Shown here one piece after another: positions 2,781 to 18,789 of a stretch of DNA of 35,982 bases (the stretch's first letter is position 1; the number at the start of each line of letters is the position of its first letter). The notes below the pieces were generated by a model, which saw only the letters and a list, made by a program, of their open reading frames with translations, searched no databases and was not told where the DNA came from. The translations under genes and the position numbers were made by a program. Source of the DNA: a virus; the IMG/VR virus record IMGVR_UViG_3300009052_000013, positions 1 through 35,982 of that record. One strand, given 5' to 3'.

Positions 2781-3853
2781 ATGTACAGTGCATCAAGTTT
2801 AGAGTCTGTAAAATAATTGCCTATATTTTTTAGTGCTGGTGACTTTAATTCATAGCACTTCATTACCAAGTCGTTTAGGTCCTTGATATCCTCAGTGTAT
2901 ATATTTAGCCCACTTTCTTTCAAGAATTTTGACCACATAAACACAGATTTATTACGCTTAAGCTTTTCAATCATCTTTGTCTTACCTGTCTCGTCATTAT
3001 CAAACATATAACGAGTCGTTGGTATTTCATCTAATTCTGTAGTTGAACGACCGGCTGTTGCTAAAGCTAAAGAATTATGCATAAACATGGCATCAAGGGG
3101 TCCCTCAAAAATGGTAACCGGTCGTGTCATATCAATACGCATAATATTAAAAAGTGTAGATATCTTATTGATTGATATAAGCTCTTCGCCTTCGTATGGG
3201 AATTCAATACCCATCTCGCTATAAAGTTTACCCATATCATACGTAAGATATCTTGATTTATATTTGCCAAGCTTTCTACTTTGGCATCCAAGTATTTTAC
3301 CGTCTTGTGTCTTATTTAAAATCCAAAGATTCTGACCAAATGACGAATAAAGAAACTCATCTGACTTTTGATGCAATCCACGATTCTTTAAATAGAACCA
3401 AGCATAATCACCAACCTCTATTGATTTAGCACCAAAGTATTTTTTAAAGTCTTCTACTTTAATTGCAGATTCAGCAGCTTTAACATAGATACCGTGCTTC
3501 AGCGTTTCAATCTGTTGTACCTCGGTCTTCTTGGTCTTGATATACTCAATAATTGTAATTGAGTCATCACCACCCCGCATTCTAAGGTTATGATCACGTA
3601 ATAGTTTATTTAGGTCACCATGCTCACCACAGTTATAACAGTGGAATTGTAGGGTGTCCCAATAAAGGTTGCATCGCTTTTTGGTTACGTCAGTTGAGGA
3701 GTCTCCACAATAAGGACAAGCCAGCGTCAAACGACCTGGCATCTCCTTAATCATTTGCTTAGAGGGGTGACCGTGTTCTTGCACGGCCACCTCTTTAACT
3801 AAGCTTCTAATTCTATTTTTGAGTTCCTCAGTGAGATTAGATGTCGAGTCCAT
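2777..3853 (-). CDS. 61: DNA primase (T4 gp61-like, zinc finger plus Toprim)
   Basis: At 358 aa it compares with T4 gp61 (342 aa), which makes RNA primers for lagging-strand synthesis with the gp41 helicase. The N-terminal zinc-binding domain has CPYC (46-49) and CYNC (72-75), the four-cysteine arrangement of primases. The Toprim catalytic domain shows EGPLD (250-254) and FDND (284-287), with DIKDLNDL (322-329) as the usual third element; E250, D285 and D287 are the predicted metal ligands. The ATG at 3851-3853 lies 17 bp inside the 3' end of the gp32 gene, so translation is probably coupled to gp32. No Shine-Dalgarno sequence is seen. The helicase partner is not in this window. Confidence 0.9.
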   Translation of the reverse strand: MDSTSNLTEELKNRIRSLVKEVAVQEHGHPSKQMIKEMPGRLTLACPYCGDSSTDVTKKRCNLYWDTLQFHCYNCGEHGDLNKLLRDHNLRMRGGDDSITIIEYIKTKKTEVQQIETLKHGIYVKAAESAIKVEDFKKYFGAKSIEVGDYAWFYLKNRGLHQKSDEFLYSSFGQNLWILNKTQDGKILGCQSRKLGKYKSRYLTYDMGKLYSEMGIEFPYEGEELISINKISTLFNIMRIDMTRPVTIFEGPLDAMFMHNSLALATAGRSTTELDEIPTTRYMFDNDETGKTKMIEKLKRNKSVFMWSKFLKESGLNIYTEDIKDLNDLVMKCYELKSPALKNIGNYFTDSKLDALYI

Positions 3854-4760
3854 TCAAGAATGAATCAAGGTCATCGTCATCACTTACGTTTGATGTACTA
3901 CCGCTTGCAGTTGCATCAACGTTGTCCAAGTCAAATGATTCGCTAGCCATTTCAGCCGCTTTTGGTGCTGATTTTGCAGGAGCTGCAGATACAGCGCCCA
4001 TAGCACGACCTGGGTTTGAAATGTATTGGCCAAGAACTTGGTTTACAAAGTCACGAGTTTGGTCATCCCATGGCTTGTACTCGTACACTGAAAGTGAAGG
4101 AGCTGCATCCAATTCAGTCTTGATAGCTTGCATTGATTCTTGATTGCGTTCAGCCGGTTTTTCACCAACCATGATTGCAGACGTCGAAGCAGAAAACTTT
4201 GACTTATCATAGTTGTTGTACTCACCCTGACGAGTAATAATCAATTCAAAGTTCTTGCCTTCAAAAAGGTCAAATACTTGAGTTGGCTCGCCAAATGCTG
4301 GTGACAATTCCTCGTCAATCTTCTCTTTGATCTTGTAACCAAACTTGAATACCATGTATTGGCCTTCTAGAGCTGGGTTCTGAGGATCTTTAATAACTTT
4401 GATCAAAGCGTAATATTGTTCGCGACGCTTTAGACGCTCAGACATTTTACGGTCTACCGCTGAGTCTGATTTGCGGAGACGGAAGAACGTGTCCTGGATA
4501 GGGCACTTTTCACCCACTGAAGTTGGAGAGTCGACTAGACGACCAGAACCTGAAGGGTCTGTCAACCAGTGTACGTACTTTCTAACAAGTGATTTGCGTG
4601 GGTTTTCTGGATTAGGTACGAAGCGGATAAGTGCTTTGTAAGTACCGTCCTTGCCATCATCGGCTGATGGTTTGTAAACAACTTCAGTAGTTGAAGAAGC
4701 TGCTTGGTTGTGAGTTTCAACATCGTTGACGCTCAAGTTGAAAATGTCAAAATCTGCCAT
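3837..4760 (-). CDS. 32: gp32-like single-stranded-DNA-binding protein
   Basis: This 307-aa protein (T4 gp32 has 301) coats ssDNA during replication, recombination and repair. The OB-fold core is recognisable: ALIRFVPNP (43-51), YYALIKVIKDPQNPALEG (116-133), FKFGYKIKEKI (138-148) and NYDKSKF (183-189), each with a direct T4 counterpart. The C-terminus is acidic and ends DDDDLDSFLNGLDI, like the T4 tail that docks replication partners. Unusually, the T4 zinc site (His64, Cys77, Cys87, Cys90) is not complete: only one cysteine lies in the region, in KCPIQD, where T4 has CPVC. It has the best Shine-Dalgarno sequence in the window (AAAGGA) and its own promoter candidate. ATG at 4758-4760. Confidence 0.95.
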   Translation of the reverse strand: MADFDIFNLSVNDVETHNQAASSTTEVVYKPSADDGKDGTYKALIRFVPNPENPRKSLVRKYVHWLTDPSGSGRLVDSPTSVGEKCPIQDTFFRLRKSDSAVDRKMSERLKRREQYYALIKVIKDPQNPALEGQYMVFKFGYKIKEKIDEELSPAFGEPTQVFDLFEGKNFELIITRQGEYNNYDKSKFSASTSAIMVGEKPAERNQESMQAIKTELDAAPSLSVYEYKPWDDQTRDFVNQVLGQYISNPGRAMGAVSAAPAKSAPKAAEMASESFDLDNVDATASGSTSNVSDDDDLDSFLNGLDI

Positions 4761-4763
4761 AAT

Positions 4764-4769
4764 TCCTTT
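4764..4769 (-). promoter_or_regulatory. Shine-Dalgarno sequence of gp32 (AAAGGA)
   Basis: On the minus strand AAAGGA precedes the gp32 ATG by three bases (ATT). It stands out because most other genes here have no such sequence. It lies in an A/T-rich leader of about 65 nt, which resembles the kind of unstructured target gp32 binds to repress its own translation in T4; autoregulation here is inference. Confidence 0.6.
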
Positions 4770-4833
4770 AATACTTTAATTTAAATTGTTGAACTTTAAA
4801 ATCGTTAAATACCTTTAGAGTAACTTAACACTA

Positions 4834-4866
4834 CTTATACACCAAACCTGAAAAAAGTTTCAAGCT
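4834..4866 (-). promoter_or_regulatory. Candidate promoter of gp32 with 16-bp box
   Basis: The minus strand carries the box AGCTTGAAACTTTTTT (4851-4866), containing TTGAAA as a -35-like element (4858-4863), then an 18-bp spacer and TATAAG (4834-4839) as -10. Transcription would start near 4827 and give a leader of about 65 nt before gp32. The same 16-bp box occurs upstream of the 56-aa gene. Sequence evidence only. Confidence 0.5.
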
Positions 4867-4873
4867 TGTCTTA

Positions 4874-5044
4874 TCACATGCGTGAATATCTAGCTCCGGC
4901 TTCGTCGATCCAATCACCGTTGTCGGTCTTAGTCAAACCAGCTTTAGCTAAAAAAGATAACATCTCTGCTTCAGTGATTCTATTTTCAAGAACCATGATT
5001 TCAAGAATATCTTTTAGAGTACTTAGGTATGTTGCATTAATCAT
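4874..5044 (-). CDS. 56-aa hypothetical protein
   Basis: A small open frame starts with ATG at 5042-5044 and ends with TGA at 4874-4876. The product is helical and amphipathic at the N-terminus (MINATYLSTLKDILEIMVLE), with a central TEAEMLSFLAKAGLTKT and a C-terminal DNGDWIDEAG stretch. It fills most of the only long gap in the window (4761-5161) and is preceded by a good sigma70-like promoter, which supports it as a real early or middle gene. I do not recognise the family. Its compact helix-turn-helix-like look (ITEAEMLSFLAKAGL) could mean a small regulator, but that is speculation. Confidence 0.65.
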   Translation of the reverse strand: MINATYLSTLKDILEIMVLENRITEAEMLSFLAKAGLTKTDNGDWIDEAGARYSRM

Positions 5045-5065
5045 ATCTTATATATCTTTTATATT

Positions 5066-5096
5066 ATTATACTATTTTTTAAAAAAGTTTCAAGCT
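5066..5096 (-). promoter_or_regulatory. Sigma70-like promoter upstream of the 56-aa gene
   Basis: On the minus strand, TTGAAA (5088-5093) is followed by a 16-bp spacer and a perfect TATAAT (5066-5071). The -35 hexamer is part of the 16-bp box at 5081-5096 shared with the gp32 promoter. The ATG of the 56-aa gene begins about 22 bp after the -10. The region 5097-5161 between this promoter and the RuvC-like gene stop shows nothing else I can support. Confidence 0.55.
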
Positions 5097-5161
5097 AATG
5101 AAACAAAACCCCCAATATGCTCATATAAGTTATGGTTTTATGCCTGAGGGTAAAATACAAT

Positions 5162-5806
5162 TTAAAGGGTTTGAGCATAAGACATAATAAAGTAAGCATC
5201 TACAAGGTCATCTAAGGGCTTCATAATCTTTTTGTCCTCTTTGAATTCTTGACAAAAGTTCCAAAGACCTGATTCAATATTTGATGTATCATTGATATAA
5301 ACATACCACATGTCCATCTTCTTCATGTTACCTTTACCAGCATGTTTCTTAATACTTGTAGGGGCGAAGACTTCAAGTTGAGTTACATTAAAGCGATCAA
5401 TCAAATAAGATTTAAGTATAGAGCTGGCGGATGCTAAATCAATAAGAGAGTTGGTTCCGAATCTTGAGGTGCCATAAGAAGAACCTTCAAAAAAGATTTT
5501 ATACTCTTCTTCTGGATTGGTATTTTCTGCAATAATATTACATATACCTTCAGCAATATCACGGTGTCTCATGACCCTTGCCATTTCCTGTTTATCAATG
5601 TTTGGCTCTGGTTGATATATTAAAGTAACATCATCAAGTAGGTTCATTTCCTCTTGAAGCTTTTGTTCTTTTTTTGTACCAGTACCTGGTTTTAGATATG
5701 AGATATAATATGGCTTTCCATCTTTAAGAAGACAGATGCCTGGAGAGTTGATCGAAAAATCGATTGCTATTAAATTCAAATTAGATTCTTTTACCAAGAC
5801 TAGCAC
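5162..5806 (-). CDS. RuvC-like Holliday junction resolvase / nuclease
   Basis: This protein of up to 214 aa has the RNase H-like fold of the RuvC superfamily, which cuts four-way DNA junctions. Visible acidic positions are D16 in LIAIDFSINSPG, E107 in IFFEGSSYG and D200/D203 in PLDDLVDAYF, matching the RuvC order D-E-D-D. A lysine-rich segment SIKKHAGKGNMKKMDM precedes the last motif. The longest frame starts with GTG at 5804-5806, inside the previous gene; a TTG at 5777-5779, just after that gene's stop, would give MNLIAIDFS, closer to a usual RuvC N-terminus. I favour the TTG weakly. T4 itself uses the unrelated endonuclease VII for this step, so this is a replacement. It could also act on other branched DNA. 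Confidence 0.8.
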   Translation of the reverse strand: MLVLVKESNLNLIAIDFSINSPGICLLKDGKPYYISYLKPGTGTKKEQKLQEEMNLLDDVTLIYQPEPNIDKQEMARVMRHRDIAEGICNIIAENTNPEEEYKIFFEGSSYGTSRFGTNSLIDLASASSILKSYLIDRFNVTQLEVFAPTSIKKHAGKGNMKKMDMWYVYINDTSNIESGLWNFCQEFKEDKKIMKPLDDLVDAYFIMSYAQTL

Positions 5807-6149
5807 CTAGTGCAGCACCAACAAGTCTTGAAGTTAACAGATCGTAAAAAATACCTTTTTCAATACCTAGTACTTTAGCAACAATCTTGCCGACAGATTT
5901 ACCTAGGGCAAAACCTGTAAGACCACCGATAATAGAACCAAGGATACCCTCATTAGTTACCTCTTCATTAAAAGCTGCTAGGTCGTATGAACCATCTTCT
6001 TTTTTGTATTCTGCTAGAAATGCTTCAATAGCTTCATCAACTTTAGCTTCTAGTTCTGGAGTCCACTCCTGTTGTAGAGATTCGTTCAAAGACTGCATGT
6101 CTTTTTCAGTTACGGCTTGTTCTTCTAGGTATTTTAAAAAAGTCTTCAT
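5781..6149 (-). CDS. 122-aa protein with glycine-rich hydrophobic C-terminus
   Basis: The first 60 residues are acidic and helical (MKTFLKYLEEQAVTEKD at the start). The rest holds two glycine-zipper-like hydrophobic stretches, GILGSIIGGLTGFALGKS (about 69-86) and LVGAALGASLGK (about 109-120), able to form membrane-inserting or packed helical hairpins. The N-terminus resembles that of the left-edge repeat protein. I do not recognise the family. It follows the tail-tube-like gene by 30 bp and overlaps the RuvC-like frame by 26 bp if that gene uses its GTG start. A virion-associated membrane-active peptide or a small internal protein are both possible. Confidence 0.75.
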   Translation of the reverse strand: MKTFLKYLEEQAVTEKDMQSLNESLQQEWTPELEAKVDEAIEAFLAEYKKEDGSYDLAAFNEEVTNEGILGSIIGGLTGFALGKSVGKIVAKVLGIEKGIFYDLLTSRLVGAALGASLGKRI

Positions 6150-6179
6150 CTAAATATTCTGTATTTGATATTTTATATA

Positions 6180-6731
6180 TCAGTCTAATTCATTAAGTAA
6201 ATTAAACTTATTGTAGAAGAATGTTATATTGAATGTTGAGAATTCTGCAATATTACTTGCCATGTTTAATTCTAGCTCTGAAATAGAGTTCATAATTGGC
6301 TTCTCAAATACAGCAGACATTACGTGAATACCTTCAGCATCTAGGATTTGAAGCTTAAAGTCATCAATATATTCATTTGTATTTGCTCTATTGTAATGGT
6401 ATAACAGAGTGTCTGACATAATCCAATAGTTAATAAAACCGTCCAACAACTGCATTGTTACAGTAACTTCTCTATTGATTAGGTTTTGAATTGGTTGGTA
6501 CCCGCGTTTATATGTGATTGTACCATCGTTAGGTGCTTGTTGAGCTGGATCGAATGAAACACCAGGTATAGCAAGTCCCTGAATTGTGTAGTTAACAAAA
6601 TCAATAGGTTCCTCAATAATGTTACCTGGCATTCTGTTAAGATACGGTCTGTACTTATCAGCTACCTCTTGCGGTACAAAGTTCTTTGGAAACTTAAAGT
6701 TAAATAAATTACTTCTTGAGTTGAGTATCAT
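6180..6731 (-). CDS. Tail-tube-like protein
   Basis: This 183-aa protein has the segment order of the T4 gp19 tail-tube family: a beta-strand region TIQGLAIPGVSF (49-60), a loop, NREVTVTMQLLDGFINYW (86-103) packing a helix, then FKLQILDAEG and a C-terminal ELELNMASNIAEFSTFNITF region that looks like the final beta hairpin. Tube proteins stack as hexamers to form the channel for DNA. The resemblance is by pattern, not by a computed match. It sits 8 bp downstream of the 691-aa structural gene, at the far end of the tail operon. Alternatively it is a baseplate protein with a tube fold. Confidence 0.6.
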   Translation of the reverse strand: MILNSRSNLFNFKFPKNFVPQEVADKYRPYLNRMPGNIIEEPIDFVNYTIQGLAIPGVSFDPAQQAPNDGTITYKRGYQPIQNLINREVTVTMQLLDGFINYWIMSDTLLYHYNRANTNEYIDDFKLQILDAEGIHVMSAVFEKPIMNSISELELNMASNIAEFSTFNITFFYNKFNLLNELD

Positions 6732-6739
6732 ATCAAGAT

Positions 6740-8815
6740 TTAGAATTTATTTATTTCTGGAAGCGGTGTAACTGGACTTACCGATTTAGGTGTAATACCT
6801 AAGATGTTAAAAGTTCCGTGGTGAATTAAGGTTTTATCAGTGCCGTTCTGAATAGAAAGCATATAATTATTATTCTTTTCTTTAGATGCTGCAGTAATAT
6901 CTGCTTCACTGATTTTAAACATGATTTCACCTTCACCAAGCTCGACATCAGCATAGTTTAGTGTATTTTCAATTGCAACACCACCCAAATTTAGGATAAC
7001 CTTATCAACTGATTCAAGTGATATATTAATTAAATCAGAACCGCTTTTCTTAGCAATCTTAAATTTAACATAGTTATCAAATGGGCTTAGAGTTAAAACA
7101 CTCTTACCGTCTGCAAAATATGTAATCTCAGAATTGTCTACAACCTCGTTGCTTGTAATAGTTACACTTGTTGAACCAGTTACAATATTCATGCGTTCAA
7201 TAAATGTAGGTACAAATCTTGTTTGATTACTTGGTAATGTTGCAAGGTTTTCAATAATCTGTCTATTCTCAAGAACATTTGGAAGAGTATTGTATACCTT
7301 TAAGATTTTGTTTGTTGATGGAAGATTGATAGTTCTAAGTCTCTTACCAAACTTACCAACATCATATGATGTAAATGAAGCGCGCTTTACAATTTGAGTA
7401 TTATTAGTCTCGTTATAAATTCTCAATGTATAATCAATATTGTAAGCGGTAGCTGTCGATGCATTTTGAATTACCGGTCTAAATGGTAGTGGGTTTGAAA
7501 AGTTTTCAGACTGTGACATTGACATTTCGTAGCTCTTATCAAAGAACGATGTGATTTGTTCATAAACCGCAACATCGTGGAATACGATAATATCGTCACC
7601 TGAGAATTCACGTCTGTTCATGATGTACTTATCAAATTCTGAAATTGATCCGTCTTTAGTTCCGTATAGTAAAAAGTAATCACCATCTGTAGCTTCTTCA
7701 ATAACAGCTGCAATATCCTGGTATTCGTCTTCCTTAGCGATTGTAAATTCAACTTCTTCACCAGTATTGATATAATCAAAACCAAGGTCACTGTAAACAT
7801 TGTCAATCAATTTGAATGTAACTTCATAATTTGACGTAGTGTCTAGTGCATCAGTACCAGTACCAAAGAACCAATCGATGAAATCACCATCTGGGTTTGC
7901 TAGAGAAGGTACCTTAATTTCAATGAACTTAGAATACATTGTTTCGCCTAAAATAAATGGCTTTGGATTTTGAATCTCAAATGAAGATGAATTCAAATAG
8001 ACAATAGATGTAAACATGTTCTTAACACCTGAAAGTCTTTTTGCACCAATTTGGAAAAGGAAACCCTCATAACCTCTAGCATCAAAAGAATAACCAGCGC
8101 GCAAATGAAGTCTTACAGTATCATAAGTAATTGTATTTGCTGGAATGTCCGTTGCATCAGCTTGGTCAATTGTTGAAGATGTTGAACCAAGCCAAGCTAT
8201 ATTATTATCAATAAAATTATTTGTAGAATCTAGAAGTGCATACTTTGATTGAAGCGCGCCGTCTACAAGAACTGCTTGGTATCTTCCAATTTGGCCAGCC
8301 CCTGTTTTAATATCGTTACCAGTTTCTTCGTCAGCCGTTGCATACAATGGATTAGCAGTAGTTTGTACCGTAATCGCACCGCCTTTAAGTGATGGATATG
8401 TATATGTGTATGAACCATTAACCGATGGTACAAATGTATAAATACCATTTGAATATGTACCAACAACATTACTAGTTGAATCTAGAATTTCAAAGCTTGA
8501 TGGTATTGTAAGCGCAGCAACATTAAATTTGTATGTTTTGCCGTTAGCAAGTGTAAGTGGTCTTGCCGCAAAGTTTTCAACAAGAAGCATACCACTGGCA
8601 CTAGTTACATCAAAGTTTACAACTGCAGCACCAAGCTCATGAATAAGATGGCGAGTGTCTGAAGTAGACGCTGTAGTATTAAGTGCAAGTAGGTGTGAAC
8701 CATTATTATCAATTTCAATTTGATAGTTACTAAGTGTAGCTATATTTTGATCATGATAAATGAATTCTAAAAGAACATCCTGATCCAGTCTTGCATATTT
8801 TGAAGCTTGTGCCAT
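6740..8815 (-). CDS. 691-aa virion structural protein, probably baseplate or fibre-associated
   Basis: The protein is rich in Thr, Ser, Asn and beta-strand-forming residues, with no signal peptide, membrane segment or nearly any cysteine, typical of tail appendages. The N-terminus MAQASKYARLDQDVLLEFIY recalls that of structural proteins of other marine T4-like phages. Residues about 100-155 contain an Ig-like stretch (GTYSNGIYTFVPSVNGSYTY). No catalytic motif is seen. It lies between the membrane-anchored coiled-coil gene and the tail-tube-like gene. A motif TATAAACT lies exactly 5 bp before its ATG. The exact T4 counterpart is unknown. Confidence 0.75.
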   Translation of the reverse strand: MAQASKYARLDQDVLLEFIYHDQNIATLSNYQIEIDNNGSHLLALNTTASTSDTRHLIHELGAAVVNFDVTSASGMLLVENFAARPLTLANGKTYKFNVAALTIPSSFEILDSTSNVVGTYSNGIYTFVPSVNGSYTYTYPSLKGGAITVQTTANPLYATADEETGNDIKTGAGQIGRYQAVLVDGALQSKYALLDSTNNFIDNNIAWLGSTSSTIDQADATDIPANTITYDTVRLHLRAGYSFDARGYEGFLFQIGAKRLSGVKNMFTSIVYLNSSSFEIQNPKPFILGETMYSKFIEIKVPSLANPDGDFIDWFFGTGTDALDTTSNYEVTFKLIDNVYSDLGFDYINTGEEVEFTIAKEDEYQDIAAVIEEATDGDYFLLYGTKDGSISEFDKYIMNRREFSGDDIIVFHDVAVYEQITSFFDKSYEMSMSQSENFSNPLPFRPVIQNASTATAYNIDYTLRIYNETNNTQIVKRASFTSYDVGKFGKRLRTINLPSTNKILKVYNTLPNVLENRQIIENLATLPSNQTRFVPTFIERMNIVTGSTSVTITSNEVVDNSEITYFADGKSVLTLSPFDNYVKFKIAKKSGSDLINISLESVDKVILNLGGVAIENTLNYADVELGEGEIMFKISEADITAASKEKNNNYMLSIQNGTDKTLIHHGTFNILGITPKSVSPVTPLPEINKF

Positions 8816-8820
8816 CTAAT

Positions 8821-8828
8821 AGTTTATA
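8821..8828 (-). promoter_or_regulatory. Candidate late promoter element TATAAACT
   Basis: TATAAACT on the minus strand matches 6 of 8 positions of the T4 late consensus TATAAATA and is separated by ATTAG from the ATG of the 691-aa gene. The spacing is the same as at 20692-20699. A start 6 bp downstream would give an almost leaderless transcript. AT-rich sequence makes chance matches common. Confidence 0.3.
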
Positions 8829-8831
8829 TTA

Positions 8832-9590
8832 TTAAAATTGTAACCACTTTGGTGAGTATCCTAAACTAATTCCAATAACAGGTGAAAGTCTAAGTCCACC
8901 ATTGAGTGGAATAATACCATAACCAATACCAGCGTTAACCACCCATCTTGATTTATTCTTATATGTATTCAACTCTTCATTAATAACTTCAATACCCTGT
9001 AATTTAATATCATCAAATGGGTATTTAGTACTTATCTTAAGTTGTGATACACCGTCCTTTTTTTCAATTACACCAAGTAGCGAAATTGTTTGATAGATTG
9101 AAAGGTTACCAGTAACTGATGATTCATTAATCTTACCATCCAATCTGACAATTCTAATATTGTTGTCACCAAAGTTAGCTGAATCATTAAATGTAAATGT
9201 TGAATCAGGATTAATTTGAGCACTAAGTAAAAGACTATCTTTAACATTAAGCTCTGCCTGTAATAGAGTATTTACACCTTGTAGTTTTTTATTCAAACCA
9301 AGTGCAGCTCTGTACTTTTTAGTAAGCGCGCCATTATTCTCGACCAATTGTGTATTTGTATACTTAAATGTTCTTATTTCAGATTCAAGAAATCCAGCTT
9401 TATTAACATAAGTTCTAACTGAATCTTTAGATGCCTCTAAGTTATTATCAGCAATAGAAACAGTTTGCTTAAGTTCTTTAATATCTTCTCTTAGTGCAGC
9501 ATTACTAGAACACTGACCTAACAAAATAAAAATAAGCACAGCTATTGCAATGAAAGGAATCCAATCTTTATCTATTTTAATGTTAATCAT
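8832..9590 (-). CDS. Membrane-anchored coiled-coil protein, spanin-like candidate
   Basis: This 252-aa protein has one N-terminal transmembrane helix (about 10-25, IPFIAIAVLIFILLG) after the charged start MINIKIDKD. A long charged coiled coil follows (about 33-125), then a beta-rich domain, and the C-terminus SRWVVNAGIGYGIIP...GISLGYSPKWLQF, which looks like amphipathic outer-membrane strands ending in a terminal Phe. A cysteine follows the helix (GQCSS), but the residues do not fit a normal lipobox. This architecture would suit a protein spanning from inner to outer membrane, such as a spanin acting at lysis. It sits between fibre genes, so a virion or injection role is the alternative. Not recognised as a named family. 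Confidence 0.7.
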   Translation of the reverse strand: MINIKIDKDWIPFIAIAVLIFILLGQCSSNAALREDIKELKQTVSIADNNLEASKDSVRTYVNKAGFLESEIRTFKYTNTQLVENNGALTKKYRAALGLNKKLQGVNTLLQAELNVKDSLLLSAQINPDSTFTFNDSANFGDNNIRIVRLDGKINESSVTGNLSIYQTISLLGVIEKKDGVSQLKISTKYPFDDIKLQGIEVINEELNTYKNKSRWVVNAGIGYGIIPLNGGLRLSPVIGISLGYSPKWLQF

Positions 9591-9617
9591 TGTATATTAA
9601 ATATTATTGACCAATAT

Positions 9618-10895
9618 TTATGCTCCTTCAATACTTACACCACCACCAATTTCAGATAATGAGTACGTTAAGTTTGTTGCTTCTAAATAAATCATATAAA
9701 TTACAGTTGCAGATTTTGGTGCAATTGCAATTGTTCCAGTTTGAGTTGGTGTTGAATCTGGATTACCAGAAATAAAGTCTGAAGAACCACCAGATTCTGG
9801 TTCAAGAATACTAACAGGATTATATACATCACCCTTATCTATTGTAGTATTGCCAATATTTGTTGTATGGGTGTGGTTTGCTAGTGGAATATTTACAGAA
9901 ACATTTGTTAGTTGAGTAACATTCTTATTACCATGTAATGTATTACCAGTCTGAGATGGTGTAGAGTCAGCAACAGATTTACTGTAACCAAGTGCAAAAC
10001 GGTCTCTAAGATCTGGAGTTACATATGTACCCCAAGTTTGACCATTACACCAGTACCAACCAGCCCAATCATCTTTACCTCTACCAATATAATCAAATGC
10101 CGCATCACCAGATGATGTCCATTGAATTTTAGTAGCATTATTAATTATGAAAGCAGGTGCCATTACAATTGTACCAATCGGCACAACACCTGGATCACCC
10201 CAAGTAAATGTACCTTGAGCATCTGATGATTTAAGTACCTTATTTGCTGCTGCACCTGATGGCATTTTAACAGCACCGTTGAATTTAGTATTTGAAGTAA
10301 ATACAGATTCAGTTACATCTAATTTAACCTTAACACCAGCACCAGATGAAAGTGTAAGACTAGAACCTGTAAAATCATATACTGTATTTAAGGCACCAAT
10401 CGCCGAAGTTTTAAAACTAAGGATTCTATCAGCGCCATCATCATTAAATGCAACATCAATAAACTTTGTAGTACTATCACTTGATTGAATTCTAAGAGCT
10501 GTGTCAAATAAATCTTGATTTGTAATAATACGCAAAGTTGAATCCTTATAATCTACAACACTTGGACTGCCGTTAGTATCGGCATTTGCCTCACCAAGTG
10601 TTAGAGTAGATACGTGTGTGGTAGCTGGATCATTCTTAAGATATACTGAATCCTGTTCCACAAAATCATCAACAACAAAGAAATCAGTGTATGCGCCCTG
10701 TGCGCCAGTTGCACCTTGTGGACCAACAGGACCTTGAGCGCCTTGTGGGCCAGTTGCACCAGAAGCACCCTTAGATCCAGTTAGACCAATTGGACCACCG
10801 CCATTGGCCACAATCTGGTCAAAGTTATAATTAATTTTATCAATTCTTTGTGCTAATGAATCATTATCAAGAATTTCTTGTATATTAATCGCCAT
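9618..10895 (-). CDS. Collagen-like, tail-collar-domain fibre protein
   Basis: This 425-aa protein carries twelve uninterrupted Gly-X-Y triplets at 34-69, expected to form a collagen-like triple helix and so a trimer. Residues about 237-310 resemble the phage tail collar domain (GWYWCNGQTWG then TPDLRDRFALG). A histidine pair in NHTHTTNIGN (340-349) recalls the metal-binding HxH sites of T4 short tail fibre gp12. The C-terminus is hydrophobic (SATVIYMIYLEA). The N-terminus DSLAQRIDKINYNFDQI resembles that of the 183-aa fibre at 20705-21256, perhaps a shared docking segment. It most likely contacts the host surface. The ATG lies 2 bp after the stop of the 1480-aa gene. Confidence 0.85.
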   Translation of the reverse strand: MAINIQEILDNDSLAQRIDKINYNFDQIVANGGGPIGLTGSKGASGATGPQGAQGPVGPQGATGAQGAYTDFFVVDDFVEQDSVYLKNDPATTHVSTLTLGEANADTNGSPSVVDYKDSTLRIITNQDLFDTALRIQSSDSTTKFIDVAFNDDGADRILSFKTSAIGALNTVYDFTGSSLTLSSGAGVKVKLDVTESVFTSNTKFNGAVKMPSGAAANKVLKSSDAQGTFTWGDPGVVPIGTIVMAPAFIINNATKIQWTSSGDAAFDYIGRGKDDWAGWYWCNGQTWGTYVTPDLRDRFALGYSKSVADSTPSQTGNTLHGNKNVTQLTNVSVNIPLANHTHTTNIGNTTIDKGDVYNPVSILEPESGGSSDFISGNPDSTPTQTGTIAIAPKSATVIYMIYLEATNLTYSLSEIGGGVSIEGA

Positions 10896-10897
10896 GA

Positions 10898-13800
10898 TTA
10901 GCTATTTATTTTTGTATAGATATAGATCTCTTGTCTAAATCCAGGTCTTTTATTATATATTACTCTTATATTTAGAGGATTGATATTATCATACTCTAAA
11001 ATGAAATTCTTATTTTCAAGGAATGGTGTATAAAGAATGTCGCTAAGAGAGTTAGCATTTAAGATTTGGCTTACTTTAATATCCTTAGATTCATTTACAA
11101 AAAGTCTAACATCAGTTATGTTCATAAGCTGAAGTAGATTTACCTCAATGTATTTCTTGATATCATCATCAAGCGTTGTCTTATCACCATAAGATTCAGA
11201 TGTATTTACATACTTTTTAATACTAATACCTGCATTATCTGAAATTAATAAATCAGTGAGTACATTACCAATGTATAGGTCCATGTAAAACTTATCATCA
11301 TCTTCAAAGACTACGGCGCTACCCTTAAAGTTATTTGCTGCTTTTCTAGTCTTCATATCATCCAATGAATTAGCCCAGCTAATTTGTGGATAAGCAGTAA
11401 TATCGTATTGATTCTTTGGTAGATTCAATGTTGATGCAAGGAATGCACCTTCTTCATACGGTGACAGTGTACCATACACATAATTAACCTGCTTGTTACT
11501 GTCATTCTTTGCATAGAATTCAGGCTCCCAAGAAGAACGGAATACATTTATATCTCTACGGTCAATAGCAATCTCGCCTATAAGTGGATACAATGGTAGT
11601 TCACTTGTACTATTTGAAAGCTTTAAAATACCGTCAGCTTTTTCAGGATTAATCTTATGATAAAACATATCCTCAATTAGACCGTATTTGTATTGACCCT
11701 GATTCATATAAGAACCAAATGCAACCCCAAGTCTATTGTATCTATTGTACAATAATTTCTCGCGAGCGTCTGGCGCTATGATTTGAGTTGTTTTATATGG
11801 TCTATGAATATCTGTGAATGTAACAACAGGTCTTGCAAGTGGTGTGTAATCACCAGACATTCTAATTAACTTAACCTGGTGTGGGTCATTTCTTTCAACA
11901 ATAATATCACCAACCTTACCAGAACTTACTTTATAGCTGTTTGGTTTATTAGGATCTGGACTTGTAATCAAATCAGATGTTCTTACAATCTCATGACCAT
12001 CTTCAATGTTGATGATGAATCTATTTAGTAATTCATTACCATTTTCATCAATAGTAATATACTTGATAGTTCTGGTATCGTTATTATTTAATAGGTCAGC
12101 AATAGCTTTAGCAGAAATACTTTCAAATGTAGATTTTGCAAGCTTGTAACCGCCGTCTACATATTTGAATGATGTTGTAGACCAGACCGTACTTGGTAAT
12201 AAAGAAATATTTAATGTATTAACACCAAGCTCATCGTATACAATACCAAACGATGTTGTATTGATTCTAATAGAATTGTTATTATAAACCTCACTTACCG
12301 GTAGTAACCATGTTGTACCAGCATAATCGAATTTAATATTATTGTATCCACCATCTTCATTCAATTGAATCTCCCTAAGTAGTTTTGTATCAACACCAAC
12401 CGCATCAATGTAATTATCTTGACCGGCTTGTGGGATATCAAAATCTAGGTAGCCATTAATGTTTGTATCTACCGGTGTTCCAGAATAATCAACAAAATCT
12501 TGTAAGTTATACAATAGCTTTCTATTTAAAAAGCTTAGGTTGCGCTCAGACGAGTTAACATTAATGTATAATGTAATAGTTTTAAATACTTTATTTTGAA
12601 TGGCTTTTATTTGCACATTATCAAAATCATTATCGTATTTATAGTCTAATACGGCTGTAAATTTATAATCATTAAATTCAGTTGATGTAATAAGATTCTG
12701 TGGATTTGCTAATAAGAATTCTTTACGACCATATATCTTAACTTTAAGTCCTCTAAATAGGGCTTCAGCTGGTGCTGCATCACTACCTTTTCTGAGTCTT
12801 ACATACTTAGGTGTTGGCGTTGCAGGTGCAAATCCAACCCCAGTATAATCAAAACCATCATAAACAAATAATCTATCGAACCAATTATTATCGATATCTT
12901 TTAGATTAGCTTCTGTAAGTTCAATATTAAGTTCTGGCTGAATATAACTTTTTAGTTTTGTAACCATTTCTGCAACATCAGATGATGTCATCTGCTGACC
13001 GTACTGCGTGCCGTCGGGTATATTATAAGTTGGGTGTTGGTATAAATAGAACCACTCGTGCGTCATTCCATTAATGTTTCTACCATCAACCGTAATATCA
13101 GGTGCAAAGTTAGTTTTACCAAACGCTTCACTCATTGAAAGCATATATGGATTTTCTCTACAGTTTACACCTTCGAAGTATTTCCATTTATTTACAGTAG
13201 GTACAACCCTAGAATAAAGAGCAAAGTCAGTATTATTATTCTCTTGAAGTCTGTCGTATTCATTAGCTATTTTAGTAACGCCAGATCCTGTTTTTGTAAT
13301 TCCAGTATTAACGCTAATTAAATTATTAAAATAAGTTTGTGCACTTTCACTGTATTTAACAATATCCTCGAGTTGGTCTTGTTGAATATCTACAATATAA
13401 TCCTCATATACTAGTTCACCTAAATCTGAATTAGCAGTTGAATAAAAGTTGAAGTCAAAGTCATAAAAATCAAATGCTTCAAACTTACCAAACTTAATCT
13501 TATTTTCAACCCAGAGGTTTACGCTATTATCATTAATTTCTAACTTGTCAATTGGACCATCCAAACAAACGCGGTATAAATCAGTATATGTGTCGTCTTT
13601 TATAATCTCAACAATACGAATAAATTTATTACCATTCCTGACCCAGGTATTTTCATCAATGTCTCCAATTTCATTTTGTGTAACCAAAAATCCAGAACCA
13701 ACGGCTGAACCACCACGACCAGACCATACATTCCAATCCGTATAAAAGTTTACATCACCAGTAACAGCATCAAGTTTCATGTGCTTTAACACATTATCTG

Positions 13801-15340
13801 AAAGACCCTCAACAGAAACTGCCGAACCATTTAGTGCATCTTGTGCAAAAAAGAAGTTATACATTCTGTTGCCACTTCTATAGTTATTAATAGTAATAAC
13901 ATTACCAACTGCGGAAACAGAAACAGAAAGGTCTTCTATATTTTTAATGGCGCCCATCATTGCAAATGTAACTTGCTCGACGGTACCTTTATTTGAAAAC
14001 TTGTGATCTTCATAAGTTCCTGCTGGTAAAACAGGTTCTGCTACAATCTTAAATGGTGTTGTATCACCAGAAATTATAACTTCTGTAAGTACACCAAGAA
14101 TATAAGTATCTCCAATGTTTGGATTACCATTAACAGTAATTGTTAAATAGTCTCGGCTATCATCGAGTAAGTTATAGATTTGAAGAGTATCCAGCTTTTT
14201 TACATATTTGTCAGCCGTGATATCAAATGCATTTACTTTCAATTTATAAGGATCAAGTACCTTACCTTCTGCATTATTTTTTATATGTGCAAATGAATCC
14301 CCTGATTTCACCCACTGTAAAACTGGATCAACCAAATCAAGCGTAGGCAACATATCAGTAGCAACCAATGATGTTCCAGTTAAATCAAAATTTGTATCAA
14401 CTGTAGATGGGTTAATAGTTAAATAAGTACCATCGTATTTAGTATGCTTAAACGAACCCTCTTCATGTGCGTTTACATAAATACCGATGTACCTGTTAAC
14501 CTCATATGGATTATCAAAATCTTCAAATAAGAATTCAAGATTAATAAGATTAGCACTGACTAAATTGTTTCTGCCAAAACCTTCAGTAATAAAAGCATTA
14601 TTAAGTATCTCAGGTCTGTCATTATTAACAAATGCGTTATAAATAAATTCAGACTTTTGTGTGAATCCACCCTTAATAAGGTCAATACCATTCCAAGATG
14701 TTTTGCCATCTTTTTCAAATGATGCTGTGAGTGGGGCTAGCGGCCTATCCGGGTCATTTGCAAATCTGTGTAGGTAGTTACCAAGCTTGCTACCAGGTCT
14801 CATATCAAACGCCTTCACAATCGTTGCGTTTGAAAGCATTGTCATAATCCTGTCATTGATGCCATACAAATCGTTTGTAAGTGGCATTGTAGAAACAGGT
14901 TCTTCAATTCTGTATACAACAAAATACTCGGGTAACTTTTCATCAATCCATAGCGGCGCCATGAATCTGATGTTCTCGCTAAATTCTTTATAGCTATTTA
15001 GAGTCGCGCCGTAGTGGTATTGCTCTTCATATTGTTTTTGATATTCTCTATACACTGACGTATCTGAATCCTTGCGTAGGACGCCATACGCGGCTTTTAA
15101 TGGAGTCTTATCGTAAAACTTAGCAATGTCATAGGCAAGATGCCCAGTGCTATCAATTGCAAACTTTTTATAGCGTTGATCACTCAACGTCTTATTAGCA
15201 CTAATACTATCAAGATATAGTTCTCCTGATGAATCAGTTACTAATTTGACATTAGATGTCAATAGCGGGTTAGTCCTTAGAATAACCTGGCTCTTATTGT
15301 CGATTGAATTAGAGTTGACCTCAAAGTTTATGCTAGCCAT
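10898..15340 (-). CDS. 1480-aa giant virion protein, unassigned
   Basis: This is the largest protein in the window. It is beta-rich and Asn/Asp/Tyr-rich throughout, with no membrane segment or signal peptide, consistent with a baseplate-periphery or long-fibre component. The N-terminus MASINFEVNSNSIDNKSQVI leads into NPLLTSNVKLVTDSSGELYLD. I see no obvious internal sequence repeats or catalytic motif. The gene lies between a 1134-aa structural gene and the collar fibre, where T4 has gp7-gp12 or fibre genes. Its start is preceded by CAGGTTA, a weak Shine-Dalgarno. I cannot give a T4 equivalent; a wedge-peripheral or fibre-attachment protein is inferred from position. Confidence 0.8.
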   Translation of the reverse strand: MASINFEVNSNSIDNKSQVILRTNPLLTSNVKLVTDSSGELYLDSISANKTLSDQRYKKFAIDSTGHLAYDIAKFYDKTPLKAAYGVLRKDSDTSVYREYQKQYEEQYHYGATLNSYKEFSENIRFMAPLWIDEKLPEYFVVYRIEEPVSTMPLTNDLYGINDRIMTMLSNATIVKAFDMRPGSKLGNYLHRFANDPDRPLAPLTASFEKDGKTSWNGIDLIKGGFTQKSEFIYNAFVNNDRPEILNNAFITEGFGRNNLVSANLINLEFLFEDFDNPYEVNRYIGIYVNAHEEGSFKHTKYDGTYLTINPSTVDTNFDLTGTSLVATDMLPTLDLVDPVLQWVKSGDSFAHIKNNAEGKVLDPYKLKVNAFDITADKYVKKLDTLQIYNLLDDSRDYLTITVNGNPNIGDTYILGVLTEVIISGDTTPFKIVAEPVLPAGTYEDHKFSNKGTVEQVTFAMMGAIKNIEDLSVSVSAVGNVITINNYRSGNRMYNFFFAQDALNGSAVSVEGLSDNVLKHMKLDAVTGDVNFYTDWNVWSGRGGSAVGSGFLVTQNEIGDIDENTWVRNGNKFIRIVEIIKDDTYTDLYRVCLDGPIDKLEINDNSVNLWVENKIKFGKFEAFDFYDFDFNFYSTANSDLGELVYEDYIVDIQQDQLEDIVKYSESAQTYFNNLISVNTGITKTGSGVTKIANEYDRLQENNNTDFALYSRVVPTVNKWKYFEGVNCRENPYMLSMSEAFGKTNFAPDITVDGRNINGMTHEWFYLYQHPTYNIPDGTQYGQQMTSSDVAEMVTKLKSYIQPELNIELTEANLKDIDNNWFDRLFVYDGFDYTGVGFAPATPTPKYVRLRKGSDAAPAEALFRGLKVKIYGRKEFLLANPQNLITSTEFNDYKFTAVLDYKYDNDFDNVQIKAIQNKVFKTITLYINVNSSERNLSFLNRKLLYNLQDFVDYSGTPVDTNINGYLDFDIPQAGQDNYIDAVGVDTKLLREIQLNEDGGYNNIKFDYAGTTWLLPVSEVYNNNSIRINTTSFGIVYDELGVNTLNISLLPSTVWSTTSFKYVDGGYKLAKSTFESISAKAIADLLNNNDTRTIKYITIDENGNELLNRFIINIEDGHEIVRTSDLITSPDPNKPNSYKVSSGKVGDIIVERNDPHQVKLIRMSGDYTPLARPVVTFTDIHRPYKTTQIIAPDAREKLLYNRYNRLGVAFGSYMNQGQYKYGLIEDMFYHKINPEKADGILKLSNSTSELPLYPLIGEIAIDRRDINVFRSSWEPEFYAKNDSNKQVNYVYGTLSPYEEGAFLASTLNLPKNQYDITAYPQISWANSLDDMKTRKAANNFKGSAVVFEDDDKFYMDLYIGNVLTDLLISDNAGISIKKYVNTSESYGDKTTLDDDIKKYIEVNLLQLMNITDVRLFVNESKDIKVSQILNANSLSDILYTPFLENKNFILEYDNINPLNIRVIYNKRPGFRQEIYIYTKINS

Positions 15341-15384
15341 TAACCTGTGATATATTTAGCGCTTAACTATATATCCCAGTAAAT

Positions 15385-18300
15385 TTAGGCCTTATACTTT
15401 GCAAATACTTCTAGATCAAATGAAAACTTCTTGTTTTGTGAATCCAGGATATCTAGACCAATTCTCTTAGAGTAAGTTAGGTTTGTCTTAGTTTGACTGT
15501 ATTCACCCGCAATGTAACCAAGTGATGCATCAGATACACCAGAGTAGTCAGTCATTCTGTATTGGAAGATAACATCAAGTGCAATTGCATTGTTTTCACC
15601 AGTATTGATAATTGATTTACCTTCAGTGTTATCTGAATTTACAACCAATGAATCAATTGAAAGTGGAGACATAAATAGGTATGCACCACATGATTTACCA
15701 CCCAATAGGTATTGGTCTTTTGAATCAAAGCCCATTTTAATAGTACGGTTTTGAGTACCATCGTAATAGAACGCCGTTTGAATGTTGTTTGAACCTAATG
15801 TTTTTGGTTGAACAACGCCAGCACCATTATTATAGATTGTTGAATATGCAATTTGATCTATAACATCTGGATGTTTGTAGTGCAAGAAAATACCGCTGTC
15901 GTAATCCTTGACAGATTGTAATGTATTAACATAAATAACATCACCACTTACGTTATTATAAGTACCATTCCAAATAAAGTTACCGCTACCTGGCGCACCG
16001 TTTCCACCTAGGCCCTCTGAAAGAATATCAAACATTGAATATTCAAATTGAATTGCAGCATCCGTATCAGAGTTATCAACGTTTGTAGTTGCGTATAGGT
16101 TTGCATCATTTGCTAGATTTTTGAATCTAGAATAAATGAATTGACCTCTCAGCTGTGTAGATTGATATGGTGCATCATTTAAGAATAATGTTGATGTAAA
16201 TTCAGGTGCTGTAGTATTTTGATATAATACAGGAACCAGGTCATACTTGCCAGATGATAGATAGTATGCATCGTCAGATACCGCTGAGCTTACAGATGTT
16301 TGGTTTGCTGTTGGACCAAAGCTTAGGTTTGCAGTTGAATGGTATGCTGGTTGTTTTCTATCACCATATAGTCTTGAGATAAGTTCAAGCGGGGTTGCTT
16401 TTGAATTTTCAAGAATAATCTTAAATGTCTTAGTTACAATATGACCTTTCTTAATTTGAAGGTTTGCAACCTCATCTGTATAGTATCCAGCAAATATCTG
16501 CTTAGTTGAATTGTTTTGAATAACCTCAACAGTACCATCTTCTTTTTGAAGCTTAACAATAAGCTCGCCAATTGTACCGTTGATTTGTTCTTTAAGTGCA
16601 TTGATCTCAATTTGCATTGCAAGAAGCTTTTCGTACAATGTGATTGGACTTTGTGCATCTGTTAAAAAGCCAGATGCAATTGATTGTGCATCGTGTGAGA
16701 AATACTTATCATTGATTGTGAATGAATCAGACACGTGTTGGTAAACACCAGTGCTGTTCAATTCGTCAATAAGTTTTACTCTTGCAACTTCTTTAGAATT
16801 CTCATTGATTAGGTTGAGTACTGATTCATCAGTTTGTGAACCTGCTGGGAATTCAATTCTTGTGATGTCAGACCAATCTGATTCGATTGGGTTTGCTGGC
16901 CATCCAGCTTCAGATACTGACTTTACTCTGAATTCAACAACCTCACCCGCTTGAATAGGAATATCCAGCTGATTAATATTTACAGCTTGACCATCTTCAA
17001 TACTTTCAGTTGCCCAGATATACTTACCAGTGACTTCATCCTTGATTCTCTTTCTTGGCTTAGATGCAACCTCTACCCAGTTTGAGAACGAAGCTGTCTT
17101 CTTTGATGTGCCATCTACAACATCAATCTGTTCAACACCCGCAGGCGTACCGTCAGATGATAGGTATCTATATTGTACTTTAAATTGTACAACCTCTTGT
17201 GGTAGTGTATCAGCAGCAAGCTTTGCTGTTGGCATTGTCCAGAAACCGCGCACTCTGTATTTCGCAGAGATATTAGACACTGAACTATTATCAGCTACTG
17301 ATTTAATTTGATTAACCAAAGATGAATACATCTGAGATTCAGCTGTTCTTTGATTAAGGATAGACGTAAGCTCGTTACGGTCTCTATCTTTTTCAATAGC
17401 TGATGTGTATTTCTTCGTAGCAATTTCTCCACGCTTTTGTGAGATTGCTGAATCAATACTCTTAATAGTTTCCTCAACAGAAACTTTATTACCGTTAAGC
17501 TTCTTAATTGATTGGAACGCCGAGTTCTTTGTAAGGTGTGAATTAACCTGAACAACCTTGAAGTTATTTACATCAAGTACTGGAGCATTTGGCTTAACAC
17601 CAAGTGTTGATGGTGGAATAGAATCATCCTTAAGTGCTTTGATCATTTGACCAAAGTCAGCAACCTCTGCCTTATAATAAGTAGCAAGGTTTTGAACCTC
17701 GCCATTGTCTCTTGTAATAAGAAGTTCATTGGAATAGAACGCCGTACCAGGTGACCAATTCTCAGCTTCAAGATTTGAATCTGGATCAACTGGCTTAATG
17801 AATACAACTTGTCTTTCATCAAAGCCAACATTAACCTCAATGCTATTATAAGCTTCTTTGCCCTTGTAGATTTTTAGTTGGTCAACACCAACCATGATTG
17901 ATTCATAACCTTCAAGTAATAGTAGTTCAACTTCAAGAGTATCCGTGTTAAGAGAAACAATTCTATACTTAGTTGAAGCATTACCAGAGTTAACAAGTAG
18001 TTCATCACCAATCTTTAGTGATTCCGTATCCGACATTGTTTTAGACGAATCGCTGTATGTGAACTTATTGAGTGTATAAAGCTTGATAGTTTTTACTTGA
18101 GTAATACCATCAACAATAATGTTACGCTGTGTTGTTCTAACATTAGACACAGAGAATGCACCGGAGTATTGAGATGATCTTACAGGAGCATCAATAATTT
18201 CCTCGTCAACAATATACTTGATAGAGTTAGTTGCAAGATTTGAGACTAATGTATTGACTTCTAAGACATCTAGGCCCTTAAGGTTATCATCGAACCATTC

Positions 18301-18789
18301 AGTAGAGTTAGTGTCATTAGAATCGATTAAATACCTTCTCAGCTTGATTTTTTCAGTGTCAGCTGGTACTTGACCGTTAACATTTAGTTGAACCTGTAAT
18401 AGTGGGTTTAAGAATGCTTCAAAGAAGTTATTAGTCTTAGTAATAAATTCTCTTGGAGCTGAAATTGAAGTAACAGATTTTGCTGGGGTCTTTAGCTTAG
18501 ATTTATTAATTTGTCTAAATGTACCATCAGCCATCTTCACAGTGGCGTCGCCAGTATTTAGGCCAGATAGTGATTTGAAGTTTAGATCAAGTCTTTCAAT
18601 CTCACGCTTCAAGTAACCAAAAGCTGGAACTTGAACAGTCTTAAGATTGCCCTGTTCATCAAATAGATCCAGTGATACTGTTTTTTTATCAGTAGTAATG
18701 GCTTCAGAGATCTTTTCAAAGTTCTCCAAAGAGTTCTGGTTCATTTCCAGAAACTGTCTAATAATTTGCGAAATACTGTTATTTGCCAT
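15385..18789 (-). CDS. 1134-aa baseplate/fibre protein with FN3-like domain
   Basis: This is a large structural protein. The first 80 residues are helical, ending REIERLDLNFKSLSG; residues about 432-500 form a charged coiled coil; residues about 505-648 look like a fibronectin type III-like domain (AKYRVRGFWTMP ... VVEFRVKSVSEAGWP ... ESDWSDITRIEFP). A second helical stretch (about 700-735) and a beta-rich C-terminal part follow. FN3 and coiled-coil modules are common in tail appendages, where they act as spacers or sugar-binding surfaces. It starts immediately after the 631-aa gene (1 bp gap) and precedes the 1480-aa gene. The specific role is unknown. Confidence 0.8.
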   Translation of the reverse strand: MANNSISQIIRQFLEMNQNSLENFEKISEAITTDKKTVSLDLFDEQGNLKTVQVPAFGYLKREIERLDLNFKSLSGLNTGDATVKMADGTFRQINKSKLKTPAKSVTSISAPREFITKTNNFFEAFLNPLLQVQLNVNGQVPADTEKIKLRRYLIDSNDTNSTEWFDDNLKGLDVLEVNTLVSNLATNSIKYIVDEEIIDAPVRSSQYSGAFSVSNVRTTQRNIIVDGITQVKTIKLYTLNKFTYSDSSKTMSDTESLKIGDELLVNSGNASTKYRIVSLNTDTLEVELLLLEGYESIMVGVDQLKIYKGKEAYNSIEVNVGFDERQVVFIKPVDPDSNLEAENWSPGTAFYSNELLITRDNGEVQNLATYYKAEVADFGQMIKALKDDSIPPSTLGVKPNAPVLDVNNFKVVQVNSHLTKNSAFQSIKKLNGNKVSVEETIKSIDSAISQKRGEIATKKYTSAIEKDRDRNELTSILNQRTAESQMYSSLVNQIKSVADNSSVSNISAKYRVRGFWTMPTAKLAADTLPQEVVQFKVQYRYLSSDGTPAGVEQIDVVDGTSKKTASFSNWVEVASKPRKRIKDEVTGKYIWATESIEDGQAVNINQLDIPIQAGEVVEFRVKSVSEAGWPANPIESDWSDITRIEFPAGSQTDESVLNLINENSKEVARVKLIDELNSTGVYQHVSDSFTINDKYFSHDAQSIASGFLTDAQSPITLYEKLLAMQIEINALKEQINGTIGELIVKLQKEDGTVEVIQNNSTKQIFAGYYTDEVANLQIKKGHIVTKTFKIILENSKATPLELISRLYGDRKQPAYHSTANLSFGPTANQTSVSSAVSDDAYYLSSGKYDLVPVLYQNTTAPEFTSTLFLNDAPYQSTQLRGQFIYSRFKNLANDANLYATTNVDNSDTDAAIQFEYSMFDILSEGLGGNGAPGSGNFIWNGTYNNVSGDVIYVNTLQSVKDYDSGIFLHYKHPDVIDQIAYSTIYNNGAGVVQPKTLGSNNIQTAFYYDGTQNRTIKMGFDSKDQYLLGGKSCGAYLFMSPLSIDSLVVNSDNTEGKSIINTGENNAIALDVIFQYRMTDYSGVSDASLGYIAGEYSQTKTNLTYSKRIGLDILDSQNKKFSFDLEVFAKYKA

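Follow-up and report, generated by a model that had tools for sequence, protein, structure and literature searches.

A TGAAAC promoter class upstream of gp32 in a clade of phage contigs, with a phage-encoded ECF sigma factor as its candidate reader

In phage T4, replication genes, gp32 among them, are transcribed between the early and the late genes from middle promoters, which consist of a MotA box and TATAAT. The MotA boxes lie near -30 and replace the -35 element. In phages phiEco32, 7-11, and SU10, the middle genes are driven by a phage-encoded ECF-type sigma factor (PMC4281155, PMC4331800), and a survey of jumbo phages reports sigma factors and AsiA in some of them (PMC7824862). For phages CBB and GAP32, a promoter class with TGAAACG and TATA had been predicted in 2017, and the section of that paper on the class names no factor that reads it (PMC5259590). 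The word TGAAAC is also bound by SigW (PMC6713349, PMC2375139), whose promoters have the form TGAAAC-N16,17-CGTA (PMC2375139).

Boxes and promoter-like units in the window

The window analyzed here is a whole stretch of 35,982 bases of one virus record (IMG/VR record IMGVR_UViG_3300009052_000013). An initial annotation had noted in it two identical 16-bp boxes, each followed by a TATAAT-like hexamer and each upstream of a gene, and had taken them for the site of a bound regulator, in a promoter class comparable in role to MotA boxes but with a different sequence. The exact scan agrees with the description: AGCTTGAAACTTTTTT occurs precisely twice, both times on the minus strand, followed by TATAAG at the box starting at 4866 and by TATAAT at the box starting at 5096, and the genes downstream, gp32 and a 56-aa open reading frame (ORF), lie on the same strand (Table 1). 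No further match with up to two mismatches was found anywhere in the window, and the two matches with three mismatches, at 167 and 18080, are at chance level.

The 16-bp identity alone is weak evidence, because a third-order Markov model of the window gave at least one repeated 16-mer in 7 of 20 simulations, and the window holds 12 repeated 16-mer words, the AGCTTGAAACTTTTTT pair being one among them. The pattern TGAAAC-N15..19-TATAA has three matches in the window against 0.33 expected, a number reached in none of 100 shuffles. The third match, which the initial annotation lacks, lies on the plus strand and adjoins the box at 5096 in the opposite orientation; we call it P_as.

Sixteen other loci have both sense promoters, and there the two boxes match at just 8 to 11 of the 16 positions, six of which are TGAAAC itself; the long identity is thus a peculiarity of the phage of the window. 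The full 16-mer was rejected as a conserved unit; with up to two mismatches it is found at 13 scattered places in 8 of the 14 clade contigs. All that is conserved is TGAAAC, a weak WWW following it, and R-TATAA-T, and the idea that the whole 16-bp box is a regulator's site is not supported. The functional unit predicted from these letters is TGAAAC-N17-TATAA and not the 16-mer. The second promoter, with its unusual N15 spacing, may have arisen by local copying or may be weak.

Table 1. Coordinates of features at the gp32 locus of the window
Feature	Position	Strand	Remark
gp32 promoter, TGAAAC-N17-TATAA	4835..4862	-	16-mer at 4851-4866; present in relatives
Predicted +1 of gp32 promoter	near 4829 (G)	-	from the logo of N17 sites
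56-aa ORF promoter, TGAAAC-N15-TATAA	5067..5092	-	16-mer at 5081-5096; spacing 2 nt below the class norm
Divergent promoter P_as, TGAAAC-N19-TATAA	5099..5128	+	antisense into the RuvC-like gene
Conserved start of P_as transcript (TTATGGTTTTA-GCCTGAGGGTAAAATA...)	5129..5161	+	non-coding, before the stop codon of the RuvC-like gene
mRNA leader of gp32, TTAA[AC] words spaced about 9 nt apart	4761..4829	-	candidate translational operator
gp32-like single-strand DNA-binding protein, 307 aa	3837..4760	-	phrog_224, E 1.6e-43
56-aa ORF	4874..5044	-	no family match
RuvC-like Holliday junction resolvase	5162..5806	-	phrog_159, E 8.3e-13

Recurrence in related phages and the genes downstream

Among viral contigs we found 342 relatives of gp32, of which the best 80 were retained. 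All of these 80 loci carry TGAAAC-N14..20-TATAA less than 250 nt from gp32. When the upstream regions were reduced to 44 distinct ones, the spacing was N17 in 43 and N18 in one, and the letters of the spacer varied. The pattern was found in all 14 clade contigs, the poorest having one site; in contig G001 it occurs 21 times forward and never in reverse, and the reversed-pattern control gives 0/0. Over G001 to G004 the distance from TGAAAC to TATAA is 17 nt in 52 cases, 18 in 16, 19 in 5, 16 in 3, and 15 in none. TTGACA shows neither a peak nor enrichment before TATAA in the same four. A position 17 nt before TATAA is the canonical -35 spacing, which argues for a sigma -35 element rather than an activator site.

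The promoter class was found through TATAA, and we scanned blindly every 6-mer at distances of 8 to 25 before it. TGAAAC at 17 nt ranks first in G001 (17 versus 0.28 expected) and G003 (16 versus 0.72), second in G004 and G019, and sixth in G002 (9 versus 0.61). On T4 the same scan found GTTTAC, which we take to be the early -35 word of that phage; in the window alone, a short sequence, no 6-mer stands out. Among letters for which the N17 sites were not selected, there is A or T at three places after TGAAAC, and a purine at a frequency of 0.96 before TATAA and of 0.94 at the expected start. The position directly after TGAAAC is A in 0.60, T in 0.33, and G in 0.00, and no TG precedes TATAA. The predicted consensus is TGAAAC-N17-RTATAAT, and transcription would begin some 6 nt beyond it, at a purine.

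At the DNA level, a single 114-base match was the only relative in the phage collection. The nearest relative of the clade there is the 462-kb uncultured phage LR756500 (loci L210 and L225), with identities of 51.8% for gp32 and 35.1% for the ECF protein described below. In its blind scan CGAAAC at 17 nt ranks first, so that it has its own variant of the class. S-PM2 and Thanatos-1 have no match to the TGAAAC pattern with TATAA.

Of the 68 sites with N17 or N18, 49 lie less than 100 nt from a called ORF start, the gene calls coming from a simple ORF picker that places starts and small genes only roughly. The replication and nucleotide genes behind the promoter are gp32 and those for the clamp loader, an exonuclease, a DnaB-like helicase, and dCMP deaminase. 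An RNA-binding protein (phrog_850), UDP-glucose dehydrogenase, an Fpg-like glycosylase, a glycosyltransferase, and several unknowns are found there too. For seven promoters (five in G001, two in G004), tRNA genes are no more than about 160 nt away, by distances taken by hand. The gene for the gp55-like late sigma has a TGAAAC promoter in one of the four genomes with called genes (G004). No structural gene is among the named downstream genes, many genes being without a family. The proposal of a single promoter class with a MotA-like role and another sequence thus holds up across relatives; as for copies before replication genes elsewhere, it is the core TGAAAC-N17-TATAA that recurs there, and the full 16-mer does not.

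Several further observations were made in these genomes. An Hc1 histone H1-like protein stands directly behind a TGAAAC promoter in G001 (137385), G002 (164055), and G003 (209765), the G001 copy matching PF07432 with an E value of 9.3e-23. In G003, a TGAAAC promoter occurs in two identical copies, at 170916 and 171961 (+), separated by 1,045 bases. Each copy sits inside a called ORF of 147 aa and is followed after 23 nt by a 77-aa ORF, whose start is the same in both cases; this is probably a tandem gene duplication. In G002, CCTTATTTGGAATCAT is repeated directly before TATAAATA, for example at 171328 (-), 174786 (-), and 87059 (-). A late class built on TATAAATA was tried and dropped, its counts being unconvincing.

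More than 160 nt upstream of gp32, a second TGAAAC..TATA in the sense direction is present in 17 of the 44 distinct loci, and GAAAC..TATA in 25. The leaders of the same 44 loci (L003 to L082) hold on average 4.6 TTAA[AC] words against 0.73 in shuffles, mostly 7 to 11 nt apart. These repeats match the UUAAA repeats of the translational operator of T4 gp32 (PMC535899), and the leader in the window is a candidate for such an operator.

Candidate sigma factor, early promoters, and rival readings

Contigs G001, G003, and G005 encode a protein of about 200 aa that matches PF04542 and PF08281 (sigma regions 2 and 4) above the Pfam cutoffs. The best NCBIfam model, a Bacteroidetes ECF subfamily, is below its cutoff, whereas the match to the ECF superfamily model passes that model's own. 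Our ECF profile A1 also matches G015 to G019 and G021. A search of the viral contigs gave 112 relatives, the best 80 of which were retained, and in all 12 ECF-containing contigs tested (G015 to G026) the TGAAAC pattern is above the control, from 3 versus 0 in the weakest to cases such as G016, with 22/1 and a control of 1/0. The closest solved relative of the phage protein is Bacillus subtilis SigW (5wuq), whose helix α9 contacts the -35 element via T168, K170, T171, R172, and R175 (PMC6713349). Four of these residues, T168, K170, R172, and R175, are identical in 10 of 10 aligned phage ECF proteins, and T171 is replaced by N. Mapped by eye, the protein of LR756500 keeps T-K-N-R-R, with the promoter word CGAAAC, and that of Lak-A1 has T-K-N-Y-K, with a different promoter word.

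The profile search found no ECF gene in the window, G002, G004, or G006 to G014. Eleven contigs have both genes, and in these, with G019 counted as circular, the ECF gene lies 61 to 113 kb downstream of gp32 (71 to 80 kb in nine); the contigs without it hold 2 to 66 kb downstream of gp32. As this distance mostly exceeds what is left of the contig, the gene is expected, if unproven, to lie off the end in most of them; in G004, with 66 kb, its absence is not explained away by the contig end. A search for the host through the ECF protein among genome contigs gave one weak match, of 30% over 87 residues, in a Bacteroidetes metagenome-assembled genome. Lak-A1, LR745206, and crAss cr52_1 have distant ECF proteins and no enrichment of TGAAAC, with counts of 6 versus 7 in the control for Lak-A1 and 6 versus 4 for LR745206. 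For the Prevotella megaphage Lak-A1 (MK250016), the blind scan gives TAGACTT 15 to 18 nt before TATAA, possibly the promoter class of its own distant ECF protein.

The ECF gene has a different kind of promoter. None of the best 80 of the 112 relatives has a TGAAAC promoter within 300 nt upstream (one locus offering only 89 nt), and 78 of the 80 have TA[TG]ATT[TAG][AG]. In 39 thinned upstream regions, TCAAA and TTT precede this element, the TTT being placed as the -33 element at the spacing found in Bacteroidota promoters. A matrix made from the ECF upstream regions finds 95 sites in G001 to G004 versus 4 in simulations, its training set including some ECF promoters of these four, and 77 of the 95 sites lie at most 90 nt upstream of an ORF start. 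Loose early patterns were uninformative by plain counting, unlike this matrix. The Bacteroidota consensus TTTG-N18..21-TANNTTTG is not enriched genome-wide in the clade and only strand-biased in LR745206. A form related to TTTG-N19-TAnnTTTG does precede the ECF gene, and the primary sigma of Bacteroidota reads TAnnTTTG (PMC9723704). This second promoter class is presumably an early class. In G001 to G004, for example at 2992-18448 (+) of G004, it takes the very regular form TTTTTTTATGTCAA-N-TATATTTAC, about 20 to 45 nt before many small ORFs.

We put at about 0.7 the probability that the boxes serve as the -35 elements of middle promoters in these phages, most likely read by the phage-encoded ECF sigma factor; that this protein binds TGAAAC, when it acts, and in which host is what we infer. 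The host primary sigma would transcribe early phage genes, including that of the ECF protein, from the Bacteroidota-like promoter TCAA...TATATTTRC. The ECF protein would then redirect the host polymerase to the TGAAAC promoters and so to gp32, clamp loader, helicase, nucleotide-metabolism, and tRNA genes, and the late genes would then be served by the gp55-like sigma. The TGAAAC promoters have the (G)AAC of ECF-type -35 elements about 16 to 17 nt from the -10 element. Their -10 element is TATAA throughout, in a class that was found through this word, unlike ECF-type elements such as CGTA; the promoters of SigW and of flavobacterial ECF factors carry a -10 of the CGT type (PMC2375139, PMC9723704).

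This primary-sigma-like -10 element would suit a host sigma, primary or ECF, that reads TGAAAC-N17-TATAA with no need of a phage factor, and such hosts own several ECF factors, seven in Flavobacterium psychrophilum (PMC9723704). We regard this as unlikely, as TTGACA is not enriched before TATAA, the early class of the same phages has a different, Bacteroidota-like -7 element, and the primary sigma of the presumed Bacteroidota host reads another word. The gene class, with gp32 and the clamp loader, is that of T4 middle genes and would also fit a MotA-like activator that binds the box and works, in the manner of T4, with a host sigma that has been modified. The box lies 17 to 18 nt before TATAA, however, which is the -35 position, and AsiA (PF09010) was found in none of 11 clade contigs, with T4 recovered as a positive control, so that a switch of the MotA/AsiA kind is unlikely and an activator of this sort quite improbable.

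The remaining two readings we consider very improbable. In one, the sites are late promoters of the gp55-like sigma: such genes are present in the clade, and TATAAG or TATAAT resembles TATAAATA in form. But gp55 reads only the -10 element, and a TGAAAC held at fixed spacing is not expected of it; the named downstream genes are replication and tRNA genes, and TATAAATA is not clearly strand-biased or enriched in the clade. In the other, the 16-bp identity is chance or a recent duplication without a function of its own. The N15 spacing of the second promoter would agree with this, and beyond TGAAAC it is borne out by the partial agreement of the boxes in relatives and by the repeats in simulations, so that the identity of the extra 10 bp can still be explained in this way. 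For the core it is refuted by TGAAAC-N17-TATAA at all of the best 80 of 342 gp32 loci.

The middle promoter reading also bears on P_as, which runs against the RuvC-like gene with no plus-strand ORF downstream in the gene call of the window. TGRAAC-N18/N19-TATAA was found in 54 of the best 80 of the 342 gp32 loci with a strict pattern and in 65 with a looser one, and a third pattern found P_as in 38 of the 44 distinct loci. In 25 listed loci the spacing is N18 in 19 and N19 in 6 and never 17, whereas the gp32 promoter has N17. The first 25 nt of the transcript are conserved and the promoter spacer varies, and P_as is retained in L035, L037, and L064, where the small ORF seems to have been lost. 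It is duplicated in L049 and L059, with further copies at G004 118302 (-) and G002 119911 (-). The transcript gave single-strand folding z scores of 0.32 and -0.34, no pairs in the alignment fold, and no match in Rfam; GC skew, monotone along the gene strand, was uninformative as an origin marker. Conserved beside gp32, P_as is a candidate non-coding RNA or origin. T4 origins are R-loop origins, and it is conceivable, if rather doubtful, that a short non-coding RNA started here by the ECF protein serves, by its conserved start, as a replication primer at an R-loop origin or as an antisense regulator. If so, a single sigma factor would govern middle transcription as well as the onset of replication.

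Comparison with known systems

New here are the clade, the link to an ECF protein, the proposed early-to-middle cascade, and the conservation of an antisense promoter; in the open-access literature searched we found no TGAAAC phage class joined to an ECF sigma. If the reading is right, widespread uncultured phages, probably of Bacteroidota, time their replication with an ECF sigma of their own, and a phage sigma combines a -35 like that of SigW with a -10 like that of primary sigmas. This would also supply a testable reader for the promoter kind predicted for CBB and GAP32, as well as a sequence key, TATATTTRC for early and TGAAAC for middle, with which gene timing could be read from metagenomic contigs.

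The CBB and GAP32 class resembles that of the clade in its -35 TGAAAC, its TATA -10, its 17-nt spacing, and its many sites before DNA-synthesis genes, and one TGAAACG promoter precedes a gp55-like gene (PMC5259590). Our blind scan of CBB ranks TGAAAC first, with 29 at 17 nt versus 0.94 expected, and counts with TATA are 39/6 in CBB and 36/2 in GAP32, with controls of 7/5 and 10/8. RaK2 shows no enrichment (8/6 versus 9/6 in the control). The two phages differ from the clade in having enterobacterial hosts and an extended TG before TATA (PMC5259590). This TG and the G after TGAAAC are both absent in the clade. The CBB sigma, moreover, is a protein of 330 aa with regions 2 to 4, including region 3, is not an ECF factor, and has no match to profile A1. 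The box as such therefore does not require an ECF protein, since these phages have the same -35 word and the CBB sigma has region 3.

In phiEco32, 7-11, and SU10, the consensus tAATGTATA is a -10-type element without a TGAAAC box (PMC4281155, PMC4331800). SigW shares with the clade the -35 word and a similar spacing, and the phage ECF protein keeps four of the five hydrogen-bonding residues of helix α9 (PMC6713349). SigW promoters differ in having CGTA where the clade has TATAA, and they serve a bacterial stress regulon rather than phage middle genes. The middle promoters of T4 are alike in role, whereas the box of the clade has a different sequence and stands at -35, and AsiA was not found.
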